A DNA stretch of 64,000 bases from Syntrophotalea acetylenivorans. Its GTDB lineage: Bacteria; Desulfobacterota; Desulfuromonadia; Desulfuromonadales; Syntrophotaleaceae. This document shows, in pieces, positions 5,121-50,196 of the stretch. Made by a program: the position numbers and the translations under genes. Each line of letters begins with the position of its first letter. The stretch's first letter is position 1. The notes under the pieces are model-generated. The model searched no databases. It saw nothing but the letters and a program-made list of their open reading frames with translations, and was not told the DNA's origin. The stretch spans positions 310,001 to 374,000 of the forward strand of contig NZ_CP015519.1 in assembly GCF_001887775.1 (NCBI RefSeq). The letters are read 5' to 3'.

Positions 5121-5253
5121 CGTAATGCGTAATAGGTAATAGGTAATAGGTAATAGGTAATAGGTAATAGGTAAAAACCAATATCCCGAAATCTTGGCGA
5201 TTTTTGCTTTTAAAGTCTTTTCCCCATTACGATTTACGTCTTACGAATTACGG
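5121..5253 (+). repeat. Palindromic intergenic repeat with AATAGGT x6 microsatellite
   Basis: The left arm CGTAATGCGTAAT (5121-5133) runs into six perfect copies of the heptamer AATAGGT (5131-5172). The right arm at 5223-5253 carries the inverted words ATTACGATTTACG and ACGAATTACG. The arms can pair to a large imperfect hairpin. Related words recur at 48454-48561, 48779-48892 and 50099-50180. It fills the gap between the Trm112-like gene and waaF. Confidence 0.7.
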
Positions 5254-18197: not shown

Positions 18198-18227
18198 GGC
18201 CACAGATGAACGCTGATTTACGCAAAT
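18198..18227 (+). repeat. Left inverted repeat flanking the GxxExxY gene
   Basis: A ~30-base arm containing CACAGATGAACGCTGATTTA. Its reverse complement matches the segment at 18645-18673 at most positions. The two arms enclose a single small gene. Similar words (GCAGATGAACGCAGAT) occur in the repeat region at 48727-48765. Confidence 0.75.
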
Positions 18228-18252: not shown

Positions 18253-18654
18253 ATGGTTCGGGAGGTTGCGTATCACGATAGTCTGACTGAGCAGATAATA
18301 GGATGCGCATACTCCGTAGGAAACGCCCTTGGTGAAGGTTTTCTGGAGAAAGTCTATGAGAATGCCTTGGCTCATGAACTAGAGAAGACAGGCCTGAAGG
18401 TTTCTCGTCAGGAGCCAATAACGGTTGTTTATGATGGTGTCGTGGTCGGGGATTATTTTGCCGACATGATTGTGGAAGAAGAAATAATTATTGAACTCAA
18501 GGCTGTAAAGAATATTGATAATTCCCATTTGGCACAATGTATTAATTATCTGAAGGCGACAGGGAAGAAGCTTGCTCTATTGATCAACTTTGGTAACAGC
18601 AGGGTGCAGGTTAAGCGGGTAATAAACACAAAACAAGTTAGTCCATCTGCGTAA
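18253..18654 (+). CDS. GxxExxY family protein
   Basis: 133 residues. The family-naming motif is in GEGFLEKVYENAL (residues ~32-44). DGVVVGDYFADMIVEEEII, IIELKAVK and HLAQCINYLKATG follow, a compact alpha/beta fold with Asp-x-Glu-x-Lys spacing like PD-(D/E)XK proteins. The function is unknown. It interrupts the run between rfbC and gmhA and sits between 30-base inverted repeats, suggesting a separately acquired unit. GGAGGAAAAG at 18241-18250 is a strong ribosome site. Confidence 0.85.
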   Translation: MVREVAYHDSLTEQIIGCAYSVGNALGEGFLEKVYENALAHELEKTGLKVSRQEPITVVYDGVVVGDYFADMIVEEEIIIELKAVKNIDNSHLAQCINYLKATGKKLALLINFGNSRVQVKRVINTKQVSPSA

Positions 18655-18673
18655 ATCGGTGTGAATCTGCGGC
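18645..18673 (-). repeat. Right inverted repeat flanking the GxxExxY gene
   Basis: Contains ATCTGCGTAAATCGGTGTGA, matching the reverse complement of 18198-18227 with a few mismatches. It overlaps the last codons of the GxxExxY gene, so the gene's C-terminus is partly encoded by the repeat. Confidence 0.75.
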
Positions 18674-38016: not shown

Positions 38017-39395
38017 ATGAGAACAAAAGTTGCAGCTGTTGTGTTCAACTCAGTGTTCAGAGATGCTCGAGTTTTGAAGCAGGCTGAAAGTATGGAAAAA
38101 AATAATTATGAAGTTAAAGTTTTTGGCATACAAGATGAAAATAATAAGATTAGGAACCCTAAAACAAATTATCAGTTCGATATAATATTGAGTGAATGCC
38201 ATTCGTACAGAAAGTTTTTGTTGTGCGGAATTTTAACCTTATTTTTTGTTTTTATTTTTCATAAAATTCCTGACCATGCTGGTTTTTTAAAAGGGATTGT
38301 TATTGTCTTTTTTTTGTTTGCATTTTTATTTCTTTTTAAGAAAAAAAACAAATAAAAATTAAAGTAAAAAGTAGTCTTCAAAAATTATTTCAAATTTTGA
38401 ATGACAGGTCAGTTTTCTTTTCAAAGTTATATGAACTTGTTTTGTTGGTTCGTAGGATTTGGCTTTACCATGTATGGAAAAAATGTTTGATAAGAGAAAT
38501 TTTAAAATTTAAGCCAGATGTGGTTCATTGTCATGATCTTGTTACGGTTCCAGTTGGGTTAAAAGTTAAAAAAATTATTGGCGCTAAAGTTGTTTATGAT
38601 AGCCATGAAATTTTTACCAAGCTTTCCCATGCTACACCTATATGGGAATGGTGGTTTCATCGAGTTGAGGAGAAAATTTCACATAAAATCGATGGTTTTG
38701 TAACCATTAACAAAAGTATTGCTGATTATTTGAAAAAAGAATACCCGGCTTTGCCTGAACCGGTTTTGGTCAAAAACGCAACAAAGTTTAACGGAGGGAG
38801 AGGGGCTTATGATGGGAGGCTGCATAAGGCTACTGGTCTCCCTTTGGACCAAAAAATATTGCTCTATCAGGGGGGATATTCCCCGCATCGTGGATTAATT
38901 CAATTGGTAAAAGCTGGTGGACTTTTACCTCAAGGGTGGACACTTGTATTAATGGGGTGGGGAGGGCTTGAAGAGGACTTGCGCCAAATGGCTCACCAAG
39001 TTGACCCTGAGGGTGTCCGGATCAAATTTATTCCCCCTGCTCCGCAAACAGAGTTGGTTTGCTGGAGTGCTGGCGCTACCCTGGGCGTCATTCCCTATGA
39101 AAATATCAGTTTGAACCACTGGTATTGCACTCCTAACAAGTTATGGGAGTATCCTGCGGCTGGCGTCCCCATCCTGTGTAGTCCTTTCCCGGAGTTGTCT
39201 GCCGTAGTTGAAGCTTTTGGGGTTGGGGCCCTGCTGAACGATCCGGTAACCCCTGAGGCAATTGCTGCAGCGGTTGCGAATATGACAGCGGAGGATGTCC
39301 AGAAACAGGTTGAATCTTGTTGGGAGTTTATCCGAAAGGATAACTGGGGAGTTTACGAGCGGAATCTTATTGATTTATATAGGTCTGCCCTTTAA
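38017..39395 (+). pseudogene. Glycosyltransferase family 4, frameshifted at an A run
   Basis: About 460 residues when joined. The N-terminal part (38017-38355) has AAVVFNSVFRDARVLKQAES and two membrane segments. It is cut by a stop after A8 at 38341-38348. One more A would continue as QIKIKVKSSLQKLFQILNDR in the next frame, open to 39395. The second part has VVHCHDLVTVPVG, VVYDSHEIF, LYQGGYSPHRG and IPYENISLNHWYCTPNKLWE, a classic GT4 set. The 5' half is strongly AT-rich, the 3' half less so, suggesting a mosaic gene. Confidence 0.8.
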
Positions 39396-45658: not shown

Positions 45659-46500
45659 TCAAGTAGACAGTTGAAAAATAGAGTTTTCAGCGTTCTGTGA
45701 CAGATATTCAGCCGGAGTCAGATCCCCTAGGGAATCGTGTGGCCGCTGTTTGTTGTATTCGATCTTCCACCAATAGGTGGTTTCCTGCACTTCATTCAGA
45801 TTGCGGAACAGGTAATGGTCGAGAACCTCGTTCCGATACGTTTTGTTAAAGAGTTCGATATACGCATTCTGGTTCGGCTTGCCGAGCTCAATGTATTGAA
45901 TTGTTATCCCGGCCTCCTCGGCCCAAGCGATGAAATCGCCGCTGAGAAACTCAGGTCCGTTGTCGGTCCGAAAAACATCGGGTAGATTTCGCTCCAATCT
46001 GAGTCGCTCAAAAACTCGGATCAAACGTTTCCGGGTGATCGAGGTATCGATTTCGACATGCAGCAGCTCGCGGTTAAAATCATCGATCACTTTAAAGGTG
46101 CGGAACCGCCGACCGGCATAGAGCGAATCACTCATAAAGTCGGCTGACCAGACCTGGTTCGGTTGTTTTGGTACCAGCAACGGCTGCTGAATACGTTTTG
46201 GAAGCTGCTTCTTGGCCGTCGTTTCTGATTCAAGTTCAGTTTGCAGTAAATACGATAAACCCGTTTATGGTTCCAGCGGTGTCGCTTGCGCAGATATTTT
46301 CAGCATTTCCAAAAGCCCCACCGGGGATGTTTATCGAGCAATGCATTGATGGCATCGACGACTTCGGCATCACGATCCTGCGCTATAGGATGTCGATAGT
46401 AGGCCGCCCGAGACAGACCGACACAGCGGCAACTGCGCTGCACAGATAAGCGATGTTCGGCAATCAGATAGGTGATGGCCTCACGCTTGTCAGGCGGCCT
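45659..46500 (-). pseudogene. IS3-family transposase OrfB, disrupted
   Basis: The intact C-terminal half (45659-46180) holds the whole DDE core: WSADFMSD, FRTDNGPEFLSGDF and KPNQNAYIELFNKTYRNE. Upstream the minus strand reads EAITYLIAEHRLSVQRSC and INALLDKHPRWGFWKC, then hits TGA, resumes with KYLRKRHRWNHKRVYRIYC, and changes frame before LPKRIQQPLLVPKQPNQVW. Two lesions make full-length translation unlikely. Subgroup resembles IS51/IS407. Confidence 0.85.
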
Positions 46501-46765: not shown

Positions 46766-46979
46766 CAGAGCCTCCTGAATGGATTGTGCCAGAAAACTCT
46801 ACTTTTGGCATGTCAATCATTTGGGGAAGCTTACGAAAGCCGCTGGGTTTGATTAGAACTGCTGTAGATTTTGCGGGTTCCGATAAAATCTTATAGAACA
46901 AGCAGGTCACCTTTTTCACCTTAGTAAGCCCATTTTAAGTATTTAGGTTTGGCAAAACCGATTTTTTAGAGAGGTAGTG

Positions 46980-48392
46980 ATGCTCCGGCAACAGGCGAAA
47001 CTGTTTAACAAACTTTCCATCTGCGTGGACACCTTTATCATATGCACCTCCCTGTTGCTAGCCTACCATGTCAGGATCTTTTTTAACGGCAATCTCCTTC
47101 CGTTGGACAACTATCTCTGGGTGCTGGTCATCGTCATACCTATTTGGTTCTACCTTCTCAAACTCAACGGCCTCTACTCCTCGATTCGACGCTGGTCGAT
47201 TTTTGACATTGTCAGCAAGCTGTTCAATGTTCATCTGCTTGGTGGTTTGCTGACAGCTTCGATAATTTACTTTGTCGACCGCGATCAATACAGTCGGGGG
47301 CTATATCTTGCCTTTCTGGGCACATCCTTTCTGCTGCTCTCCTTGGTAAAGGTCATCGTTCGCATGGGGCTAGGGTTTTGCCGACGACGAGGGGTCAATA
47401 CAAGGCATTTGCTAATCGTAGGCACCAGGGAAAAGGCTCGACGTTTGCATCAACTAGTCGAACAACACGAGGCCTGGGGCCTGGTAGTTGCTGGCTTTGT
47501 TCAGGTTGGTGGTGCTCAGGTTCAAGACGAAGTGGAGGGACACAAGGTGCTCGGCCAGGTTGATGAGCTCCTGACCATTTGCAAAACTAAGCGAATCGAT
47601 GAGGTTATTTTTTGTCTCCCCAAGGATTTCATCGTGGACGCCGAGGCCTATCTTCAGGAACTTGAGGAGTTAGGTGTCACTGTCCGAATGGTTCTTGATT
47701 TCTACGATTTTTCTTTCTACCGACGCGAGCTGAGTTTCTTTCATGACGAGTTGCCGATCCTCACCTATCACCCCAAGGCGTTTGAGGGACAGCAACTTTT
47801 TGTGAAACGATCTCTCGACATCCTAGGCGCCCTCTGCGGACTTGGGATTACCGCGATTTTATTTCCTTTCATCGTTATGGCCATCAAATCTGATTCTTCT
47901 GGACCTATCTTTTTCGGTCAGCAGCGGATTGGTGAGAATGGTCGGACCTTCCGTTGTTGGAAGTTTCGGTCTATGTTTGTTGACGCAGAAGAACGTAAGA
48001 AGGAACTACTGGCTCAAAATGAAATGAACGGGGCCATTTTCAAGATCAAAGACGATCCGCGCATTACGAAGGTGGGTTCTTTTTTGCGCAAGACTAGTTT
48101 GGACGAACTTCCGCAATTCTGGAATGTTTTAAAGGGAGATATGAGTCTGGTCGGAACCCGGCCGCCGACTCCTGACGAAGTGGCGCAGTACGAAAACTGG
48201 CATCGTCGGCGGATCAGCATCAAGCCGGGAATAACCGGTATGTGGCAGACCAGCGGCCGCAATCGGATCGAAGATTTTGATGAAATTGTCCGGCTGGATT
48301 TGCATTACATCGACAACTGGTCCATCTGGCTGGATATTTTAATTCTCTTTAAAACGGTAAAGGCGGTCTTGGTTGGTTCTGGTAGTTATTAA
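46980..48392 (+). CDS. Polyprenyl-phosphate sugar-1-phosphate transferase (WbaP/PHPT type)
   Basis: 470 residues. Four N-terminal membrane segments, a central Rossmann-like domain ([19 protein letters not shown]), and the C-terminal catalytic domain. The last has [20 protein letters not shown] (membrane hairpin), [43 protein letters not shown] and [14 protein letters not shown]. It starts repeat-unit synthesis by moving a hexose-1-phosphate onto undecaprenyl phosphate; hexose unknown. ATG 46980 follows GAGAGG; GTG at 46977 is in frame. Its base composition returns to the chromosomal type, unlike the AT-rich genes before it. Confidence 0.9.
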
Positions 48393-48410: not shown

Positions 48411-49024
48411 CTCACGCGGAGTCGCGGGGAACGCGGATAGGGCCATAATTCTCGTAATGCGTGACGCGTAATGTGTAATTGGTAAATTCATTTGCTGAAA
48501 CCGTTAAAAATCTGGTGATGTCAAGTTTTTTACCCCTTACCAATTACGTCTTACGATTTACTAATTTAAAGATTAATCAGCAAATGCGAAACATCAGATT
48601 TTGTCTGCGCCTGCCCAGGGTTTAAAGGTCTAGGTTTTTCCTGCATTTTTATCGGAATTCCTCCGTGTCCCCGCGTCTCCGCGTGAACAGAACGGAAGGA
48701 TAGTTTGCTCTTCTTTACATATTGTCAGAAAAGCAAGGTGCTTTGGACGCAGATGAACGCAGATAGGGCCATAAGGTTCGTAATGCGTGACGCGTAATGT
48801 GTGATTGGTATATTCAACTGCTGAAACCATAAACAATTTGGTGATGTCAAGTTTTTCCCCCCCCCACCAATTACGTATTTCGATTTACGGGTTTAAAGAT
48901 TGATCAGCGAATGCGAAGCATCAGATTTTATCTGCGTCCATTCTAGCGGTTAAAGATCTAGCTCTTCGCCTGCATTTCTATTGGTTTCCTCCGTGTCCCC
49001 GCGTCTCCGCGTGAACCGAACGGA
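48411..49024 (+). repeat. Tandem pair of nested palindromic repeats (~262 bp each)
   Basis: Copy 1 (48436-48696) and copy 2 (48761-49024) are near-identical direct repeats separated by ~65 bases. Each contains an inner inverted repeat (GTAATGTGTAATTGGTA with TACCAATTACG) and ends with CTCCGTGTCCCCGCGTCTCC. In copy 1 an outer arm at 48411-48436 is the inverse of that ending; in copy 2 the outer words are GGACGCAGATGAACGCAGAT and TATCTGCGTCC. It fills the whole 682-base gap before the deoxyhypusine-synthase-like gene. No ORF of note. A run of nine C lies at 48857-48865. Confidence 0.85.
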
Positions 49025-49074
49025 AAATGAGATCAAAGACCGAATGCGAGTCGTGAGTTAAGGGAGGTTGAAAA

Positions 49075-50031
49075 GTGGCAAAAAAAACTTATAAGTCCAT
49101 CGATTTTTCCGCCGTCAAACGCTACTCCATCAAAACACGCGATAACAAAGTCAACGTGGGTGAGCACTTCGCCCAGCCACCGAAACCAGGGCAGTCGGTG
49201 GCCGACTTTCTCGATGGGTTGCCTCATCTCCTTGGTGCCGACAATCTTCGGGGGGTGGTTGATGCTGTTGTGGCTGCACGCCAGAAGGGTAAACCTGTTG
49301 TTTTGGCGATGGGTGGTCACGTCATCAAATGTGGCTTGCAGCCGGTGCTGAAGGCACTGATCGAGGCTGATGTCATTACCGCGGTGGCCATGAACGGCTC
49401 GGTTACCATTCACGATTTCGAGGTTTCTCTGATCGGTGCCACTTCCGAGGATGTGGCCGCGGTTTTGGCCGCCGGCGATTTCGGATTCTCCGAGGAGACC
49501 GGCATCGGCATGAACGAGGCCTTGAAGCAGGGCAGGGAACATGGGGTCGGCTACGGCGAGGCGATCGGTCGTTGTATCGTCGACAACGACCATCCGTATC
49601 GTGACTACAGCCTGCTGGCGGCCTGTGTCGAAAAGGAAATTCCGGTGACGGTGCATGTGGCAATCGGTACCGATATAATCCATCAACATCCCGAGGCGGA
49701 TGGCGCGGTTATCGGTGAGATGAGCTATCGGGATTTCAAGCTGCTTACATCGGTAGTAAGCGAACTCGGCGACGGCGGTGTCTGGCTTAACGTTGGTTCG
49801 GCAGTATTGTTGCCGGAGGTTTTTCTCAAGGCTCTGTCCATCGCTCAGAATCTCGGGTACCATGTGGACGGTTTTACCACCGCCAATTTCGATATGATTC
49901 AACACTACCGTCCTTTGGCCAATGTGGTTAAGCGACCGACTATGGGAAAGGGACGTGGGTATACTATTACCGGCCACCACGAAATCAATATTCCCCTCTT
50001 TGCACAGGCGGTTCTCGACCGGCTTCGCTGA
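49075..50031 (+). CDS. Deoxyhypusine synthase-like protein
   Basis: 318 residues with an NAD-binding Rossmann-like core: PVVLAMGGHVIKCGLQPVLK, TAVAMNGSVTIHDFEVSLIG, VHVAIGTDIIHQHPEADGA, and a C-terminal ANVVKRPTMGKGRGYTITG, whose Lys could match the catalytic Lys of deoxyhypusine synthase. Bacteria lack eIF5A, so the true substrate is unknown; some bacterial relatives make homospermidine. GTG 49075 follows GGGAGG. Lying directly upstream of hldE, it may be linked to envelope chemistry. Confidence 0.8.
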   Translation: MAKKTYKSIDFSAVKRYSIKTRDNKVNVGEHFAQPPKPGQSVADFLDGLPHLLGADNLRGVVDAVVAARQKGKPVVLAMGGHVIKCGLQPVLKALIEADVITAVAMNGSVTIHDFEVSLIGATSEDVAAVLAAGDFGFSEETGIGMNEALKQGREHGVGYGEAIGRCIVDNDHPYRDYSLLAACVEKEIPVTVHVAIGTDIIHQHPEADGAVIGEMSYRDFKLLTSVVSELGDGGVWLNVGSAVLLPEVFLKALSIAQNLGYHVDGFTTANFDMIQHYRPLANVVKRPTMGKGRGYTITGHHEINIPLFAQAVLDRLR

Positions 50032-50097: not shown

Positions 50098-50196
50098 GGC
50101 CGTAATGCGTGAGGATGAGGCCGTGAGGGTGAGACCGTGAATGGTTTTAACCCATTACGCATTACGGATTCTCACTCACGGATTTGTCTGTCACGG
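50098..50196 (+). repeat. Palindromic intergenic repeat, GTAATGCGT family
   Basis: Left arm GCCGTAATGCGTGAGGATGA (from 50099), right arm CCCATTACGCATTACGGATT and CTCACTCACGG (50150-50180). Between them GTGAGG/ACCGTGA words repeat imperfectly. Same word family as 5121-5253 and 48411-49024. It lies between the deoxyhypusine-synthase-like gene and hldE. Confidence 0.7.

Follow-up and report, generated by a model that had tools for sequence, protein, structure and literature searches.

In Coxiella, the intervening sequence (IVS) of the 23S rRNA has tandem heptamers ahead of an S23p gene, and RNase III excises it (PMC4990558). In G. metallireducens, three classes (1–3) of putative global regulator binding sites were described in 2009 and read as IHF/HU sites, with paired tandem units of 7–9 nt on opposite strands, at a variable distance in classes 1 and 2, according to the accessible portion of that article (PMC2700814). 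REP/RAYT systems comprise dispersed intergenic palindromes, which the available text of PMC3733652 describes as thought to be moved by a nuclease whose own gene is flanked by the repeats. The Rpn/YhgA-like recombination-promoting nucleases are broadly distributed and linked to DNA mobilisation in the accessible sections of two further papers (PMC5350276, PMC10327210).

Here we describe an intergenic element in a 64,000-nt stretch of the Syntrophotalea acetylenivorans genome (contig NZ_CP015519.1, positions 310,001 to 374,000; hereafter the window, in whose numbering positions are given). The element resembles REP/RAYT palindromes in being dispersed and intergenic, whereas the elements here are much longer than 20–40 bp and the repeats do not flank a tyrosine transposase gene. 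The Rpn/YhgA-like nucleases, which we take to belong to the same nuclease superfamily as the GxxExxY proteins considered below, fall in a different Pfam family (PF04754), and we know of no iterated inverted arms associated with them. Like the 23S IVS/IVP cassettes, in which a gene of the IVP family (PF05635) stands beside heptamer-unit arms, the element has inverted arms of 7-bp units; unlike them, it lies between two protein genes and not in rRNA, and it holds neither an IVP gene nor a remnant of one. With the G. metallireducens sites it shares the paired tandem units, and, compared by description, those sites differ in that the accessible text links them to no GxxExxY or IVP gene (PMC2700814).

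The element is also like a MITE, being short, dispersed and gene-less, with terminal inverted repeats and several non-coding dispersed copies; internal-deletion derivatives of a gene-bearing element, a further MITE trait, were seen at a related isomerase locus and not at the element. It is unlike MITEs in that its ends are iterated units which differ between copy families and are tied to a PDDEXK_3 nuclease or an IVP protein, and in that no transposase is tied to these ends and no target duplication was found. We found no accepted explanation of short-word intergenic palindromes in the literature, and in the open-licence literature neither any of six repeat words of the arms, nor a link of such arms to GxxExxY or IVP genes, nor a single cassette plan uniting them. 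The element is, in our estimation, probably a pair of adjacent copies of a compound, gene-less, MITE-like relic derived from two kinds of small, probably mobile, repeat-armed cassette.

Structure and setting of the element

The genome comprises 3.22 Mb in a single contig, and the element lies between a polyprenyl glycosylphosphotransferase gene (46977–48392) and a GSU2086-family gene (49075–50031). Its parts are as follows:

48412..48440, + strand: outer 5′ arm of copy 1, three ~9–10-bp units (CGCGGAG, CGCGGGG, CGCGGAT), pairing with 48659–48686 and 48987–49014
48453..48485, + strand: inner 7-bp-unit left arm of copy 1 (CGTAATG CGTGACG CGTAATG TGTAATT ...)
48537..48561, + strand: inner 7-bp-unit right arm of copy 1
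48571..48611, + strand: base-element right end of copy 1, decayed
48659..48686, + strand: outer 3′ arm of copy 1, CGCGGAG type
48745..48765, + strand: base-element left end of copy 2, two CGCAGAT units
48779..48808, + strand: inner 7-bp-unit left arm of copy 2
48867..48889, + strand: inner 7-bp-unit right arm of copy 2
48898..48939, + strand: base-element right end of copy 2, with GCGAAGC at 48913–48919
48987..49014, + strand: outer 3′ arm of copy 2, identical to the outer 3′ arm of copy 1

The direct copies, copy 1 at 48429–48697 and copy 2 at 48755–49025, are identical in 229 of 272 aligned columns (84%) and have a start-to-start spacing of 326–329. The initial annotation had read them as a tandem duplication of about 262 bp; the two direct copies stand, the repeated unit is nearer 270 bp, and the tandem is not a clean one, since 57 bp between the copies are unshared. 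The copies have in common a pair of inverted arms of 7-bp units (CGTAATG CGTGACG CGTAATG ...), followed by the motif GATCAGCGAATGCGAAGCATCAGATTTTATCTGCGTCC, which is decayed in copy 1, and by the right end TCCTCCGTGTCCCCGCGTCTCCGCGTGA. The inner arms are tandem repeats of 7-bp units and the outer arms consist of 9–10-bp units, and the pairing of the arms bears out the nested inner and outer inverted repeats that had been claimed for each copy. The end described as highly conserved is indeed so, with 39 of 40 bases identical between the copies (98%).

On the left side, the first 19 nt of the CGCGGAG/CGCGGGG units of copy 1 (48412–48440) show 95% pairing to the right end of each copy, and the CGCAGAT units of copy 2 (48745–48765) pair at 81% over 21 nt with the inner 3′ arm at 48920–48940; the outer 3′ arm of copy 2 has no 5′ partner inside that copy. 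One core is framed by CGCGGAG/CGCGGGG units in copy 1 and by CGCAGAT units in copy 2, in agreement with the earlier observation that the outer arms differ while the core is the same. A run of nine C at 48857–48865, near the middle of the inner palindrome of copy 2, is a possible slippage site; copy 1 has TACCCC at the corresponding place.

Relatives of the element and the base element

The pattern CGCAGATGAACGCAGAT matched 13 places in the genome at up to 2 mismatches, against none for the reversed control, and one of these lies immediately 5′ of the window GxxExxY gene (18253–18654); the pattern TGCGAATGCGAAGCATC gave 8 matches and its control none. The right outer end CCGTGTCCCCGCGTCTCCGCG, sought genome-wide at up to 3 mismatches, was found only at its two places in the element, and arms related to it were seen elsewhere at L191, L226 and L246 (the last two by reading). 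When aligned with the upstream arm of L029, an IVP cassette of the same genome, the inner left arm of copy 1 is identical at 28 of 34 bases (score 19, maximum of 300 shuffles 12); against the upstream arm of a second one, L030, the score was 8, within the shuffle range.

A base element of about 100 bp with CGCAGAT arms is represented by 21 distinct right ends in the loci searched. The left end lies 56–80 bp upstream in 8 of them (un-nested) and at 147–239 bp in 5, is doubtful in 1 and is not recognisable in the other 7. When copy 2 is aligned with the un-nested base element, the 7-bp-arm palindrome appears as an insertion in the loop. Base-element copies have a terminal repeat of about 26 bp (by eye), which is decayed at the right side of the element's own copies. 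GCGAAGC, an unusually stable DNA mini-hairpin, is located inside the base-element right end, and its loop varies (GAA, GCA) among copies.

A search with copy 2 gave matches in 5 of the 14 genomes of the family, 4 of them in the genus Syntrophotalea with the own genome (G000) counted; the matching pieces, which are not whole elements, number 14 in G000, 16 in G004, 4 in G001, 1 in G002 and 2 in G008. The initial annotation had let its reading depend on other copies and on compensatory changes in the arms, and other copies are present in the own and in related genomes. A contig of G001 carries the compound at two places, at one of which no left end can be recognised; in G004 the base element lies close to CGCGGAG-type repeats on one contig, and a CGCGGAG-type palindrome stands alone on another (by reading). 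The idea of swapped modules fits this picture, as palindromes with CGCGGAG-, CGCAGAT-, CACGAAG- and GTAATGCG-type arms are found both alone and in other combinations in the own genome and in sister species (by reading). In the same-genus genomes G001 and G002 the gene junction at the element's site is kept, and the intergenic DNA there is short and lacks the element (by reading); no match came from G003, and the only one in G004 was weak and non-orthologous.

Like a GxxExxY cassette, the element has inverted arms of 9–10-bp units, and unlike it, it lacks the nuclease gene. A search for an ORF remnant in the two copies gave best E values of 0.014 and 0.038, with stops, and no convincing remnant, so that the element can only be a gene-less relative of such a cassette; no parent with a gene was identified for the base element or for palindromes of the CGCGGAG type.

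An inverted-pair scan of 264 kb (the window and 10 stretches of 20 kb at arbitrary places) gave 14 pairs above threshold; the same stretches after Markov shuffling, one copy of each, gave 2. The period test flagged 2 of the 14, namely the element itself and an A/T-rich pair at 38231 which is of a different kind. By eye, the tandem-arm kind also includes two further pairs (L191, L194), and the majority of the remaining ones resemble terminator hairpins.

GxxExxY and IVP genes with inverted arms of family-specific period

The own genome has 5 GxxExxY and 2 IVP genes, each with inverted repeats of short tandem units on both sides (by reading), and the arm sequences differ from gene to gene. One of the GxxExxY cassettes lies in the window:

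18199..18227, + strand: left arm of the gene-bearing cassette with 9–10-bp-unit arms
18253..18654, + strand: GxxExxY (PDDEXK_3) gene
18644..18673, + strand: right arm, overlapping the gene end

At L024, L027, L028 and L030 the gene adjoins whole palindromes and is not inside one simple arm pair (by reading), hence the cassette plan is not always that of one simple pair. Across the order, 42 of 58 genomes have GxxExxY and 40 have IVP (34 above the family cut-off), the own genome included in both counts.

In order to compare the two flanks of each gene, 300 bp upstream were aligned with the reverse complement of 300 bp downstream, an arm test that does not separate the whole-palindrome neighbours named above from simple arm pairs. 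We used 34 of 88 GxxExxY rows, consisting of the own genome's 5 and one each from 29 of the 41 further genomes in which it was matched, and 31 of 108 IVP rows, of which L162 and L164 were dropped for a flank below 150 bp (n = 29). The own-flank mean was 17.99 for GxxExxY (n = 34), against a permutation mean of 10.10 and a maximum of 12.65 in 5000 permutations, and 18.48 for IVP, against a mean of 9.89 and a maximum of 16.45. The best arm period was 9–10 bp in 29 of 34 GxxExxY loci and 7 bp in 24 of 29 IVP loci; this period is the best value of a range, in which single loci can err, and in each family 5 loci have a period other than the main one. Just 16 of 34 GxxExxY and 16 of 29 IVP loci had their own flank as single best partner (12 of 34 GxxExxY under looser scoring), because several loci share one arm class. 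In G001 (L215, L119), the orthologous GxxExxY gene is separated from its right arm by extra DNA, which holds another CACGAAG-type palindrome and is missing in the own genome.

Covariation of arms and proteins

For both kinds of protein, arm similarity rose with protein identity in comparisons between taxonomic families of the order. For GxxExxY the correlation was r 0.477 (452 pairs, 32 loci; the orthologues L119 and L132 omitted from the 34), and for IVP r 0.444 (360 pairs, 28 of the 31 loci; L162, L164 and L167 absent), with 0 of 3000 permutations as high in either case. Control stretches further out gave r 0.004 for GxxExxY (1382 of 3000 permutations as high) and r 0.107 for IVP (501 of 3000). 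In five inter-family GxxExxY pairs chosen for like arms, one locus sitting in two of the pairs, four-fold sites were alike at 7/28, 10/32, 11/35, 4/27 and 11/27, and in the orthologues L025 and L119 both 27-bp arms are identical with four-fold sites alike at 19/35. Since the arms are alike while the four-fold sites have diverged, the arms seem to be held by some constraint. Recognition of the arms by the cassette protein would be the simplest reading of this covariation; co-descent under another constraint could also be the source of the correlation.

Gene-less derivatives at the mannose-6-phosphate isomerase/tRNA-Leu locus

A locus shared by several of the genomes lies 3′ of a gene with mannose-6-phosphate isomerase C-terminal and nucleotidyl transferase domains, with a tRNA-Leu gene downstream in G002 and G004. 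The own genome has an intact GxxExxY gene (L024) and gene-less copies there, G002 likewise has a GxxExxY gene and gene-less copies, and G004 has one palindrome, which corresponds to the last 41 nt of the L024 gene and 25 nt of right arm (88% over 66 nt, E 4e-17). In the own genome, three gene-less copies were tested, and each contains about 75 nt from the gene's 3′ terminus together with the right arm (71–73% over 100–101 nt, E 2e-15 to 4e-14; protein E 4e-7 to 2e-5). Among three tested in G002, one matched the ORF weakly (67% over 70 nt, E 4e-5), and the other two matched over 32 nt, mostly arm. The palindromes of this locus that lack the gene but still contain its 3′ portion are thus internal-deletion derivatives. 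A gene-less derivative of about 195 bp also forms a tandem array beside the intact L024 gene (G000:C1:91580–92300, L177 11580–12300; by reading).

Both arms have CGCCGAG as their outermost unit in G004 and CGCAGAG in G000 and G002, and in G002 both have CGCTGAG as their second unit (by reading); these both-arm changes are few events, counted by eye. Such a paired arm difference is the compensatory change named by the initial annotation, encountered here at a related orthologous locus.

Occurrence beyond the order

GxxExxY matches were found on 8 plasmid records from five phyla. Clear own arms are present at 3 of these 8 loci, in Bernardetia and Bacteroides (Bacteroidota) and in Sphingomonas (Pseudomonadota), and the other 5 have no clear arms. 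Both GxxExxY loci on viral contigs have clear arms (2/2, by reading), and phage records contained no GxxExxY match at E 1e-5. On the Gemmatirosa plasmid (L206), a gene-less palindrome of CGCGGAT units is located just 3′ of the GxxExxY match.

In Sphingomonas parapaucimobilis a GxxExxY cassette lies between fabD and fabG; in S. paeninsulae, where fabG is unannotated, a few dozen bases separate the aligned end of fabD from that of the fabG start. Empty sites were found in G001 and G002 for the element and in Sphingomonas for the cassette, with exact junctions blurred by flank divergence, and no target-site duplication was established. Parts of the fabD–fabG cassette of S. parapaucimobilis between query positions 96 and 544 (L209, hit H25) match another replicon of this species in two pieces within 255 bp, which may represent a gene-less copy.

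The GxxExxY nuclease

The D, E and K of the presumed active site, assigned as the PD-(D/E)XK site of the superfamily, and a downstream Q are invariant in all 34 GxxExxY proteins. The fold was predicted with a mean pLDDT of 96.9; a sequence search of the PDB gave no match at E up to 1. The best fold match is SSO0001 (4ic1; Foldseek E 9.7e-4; VIA-align Z 9.9, rmsd 3.1, 96 aligned), which we take to be a Cas4 protein, and a shared fold with it shows no function. The Holliday-junction resolvase Hjc scored Z 7.5, among many nucleases near Z 6–8. Cutting of cruciforms by GxxExxY is possible on the predicted model and is not singled out by the fold matches.

Discussion

The two kinds of cassette would share one plan, in which a small gene stands beside or between inverted arms of short tandem units: arms of ~9–10-bp units and a GxxExxY (PDDEXK_3) nuclease gene in the first kind, arms of 7-bp units and a 23S-IVP gene in the second. 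The element would have been built from the base element of ~100 bp with CGCAGAT arms, with a 7-bp-arm palindrome in its loop, placed beside arms of the CGCGGAG type; its two adjacent compound copies may reflect local amplification, as in the ~195-bp array beside L024. We suggest that the arm units of a cassette are recognised by its own protein, either in the form of DNA or as a folded stem, and that this recognition may keep both arms alike. Breaks made at the arms by the GxxExxY nuclease could then lead, through repair or copying, to the spread of cassettes and gene-less derivatives to new sites in trans.

Among the guesses of the initial annotation, a non-autonomous element, a structured RNA and a nucleoid-protein binding array, the non-autonomous element is the one backed by evidence. 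A transcribed structured element, the arms of which would form a dsRNA stem cut by RNase III or stabilising or terminating transcripts, with selection on the RNA keeping the pairing, appears unlikely to us. It has a model in the 23S rRNA IVS, and the IVP genes here have 7-bp-unit arms, comparable to the heptamers upstream of the S23p gene in the RNase III-excised IVS of Coxiella (PMC4990558); moreover, flanks match within a locus, and copy 1 folded as DNA is better than all 200 shuffles (z −3.9). However, copy 2 under the same DNA parameters is not exceptional (z −1.0; 32 of 200 shuffles equally good), and the sole match in an Rfam search, far under the gathering score (20.6 bits against 75; E 0.38), points to no known RNA family and leaves the structured-RNA guess with no positive support, while selection on pairing alone leaves both the arm–protein covariation and the sorting of period by family unexplained. 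The same two features bear on an array of IHF/HU-type nucleoid-protein sites serving as a global regulatory element. The accessible text of the 2009 study proposed such sites for the paired opposite-strand tandem repeats of G. metallireducens, and its class TCTCCGTS resembles the CTCCGTG/TCTCCGCG units of the element (PMC2700814). Such an array fits poorly and is highly improbable, because the arm period goes with one protein family and the arm sequences covary with that protein, unlike IHF/HU sites.

Passive palindrome dynamics, in which slippage and template switching would homogenise the units of functionless, hitch-hiking repeats, would be consistent with a near-constant period combined with sequences that vary between loci, and with the tandem amplification of the ~195-bp gene-less unit (by reading). 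Free drift, however, would not give like arms with diverged four-fold sites, and arms do resemble those of related proteins in other families with four-fold sites alike at only 15–41%, and remain identical over both 27-bp arms in L025 and L119 despite 19/35; on these grounds we regard such dynamics as improbable.

The element itself, then, is probably a relic without a gene, and what makes it of interest is the system to which it belongs. Our wider proposal, which we hold tentatively and would place somewhat short of probable, is that two unrelated proteins (PDDEXK_3 and 23S-IVP) in selfish cassettes may read their own arms, with the unit length fixed by family and the unit sequence co-diverging with the protein, that gene-less passengers may be mobilised in trans, and that much intergenic short-repeat palindromic DNA may belong here. 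If cassette proteins do read their arms in this way, unexplained bacterial repeats would become a testable system of protein–nucleic acid recognition, and GxxExxY and 23S-IVP, two families of unclear function, would gain a plausible role in selfish elements.

A REP/RAYT system was considered and rejected, the sole Y1 transposase gene in the genome (E up to 0.001) being without such arms by eye. This gene (L140, G000:C1:1504848–1505171) is surrounded by GACACCATACTCATTAG-like sequences, which are unrelated to the arms. An ORF on the minus strand of the window (45659–46180) presumably encodes an IS3-type transposase, as judged from how it reads. Two further palindromes of 7-bp units are present in the window, one at 5121–5250 (GTAATAG repeats / CATTACGATTTACGTCTTACGAATTACG) and one at 50101–50165, just 3′ of the GSU2086 gene that neighbours the element.
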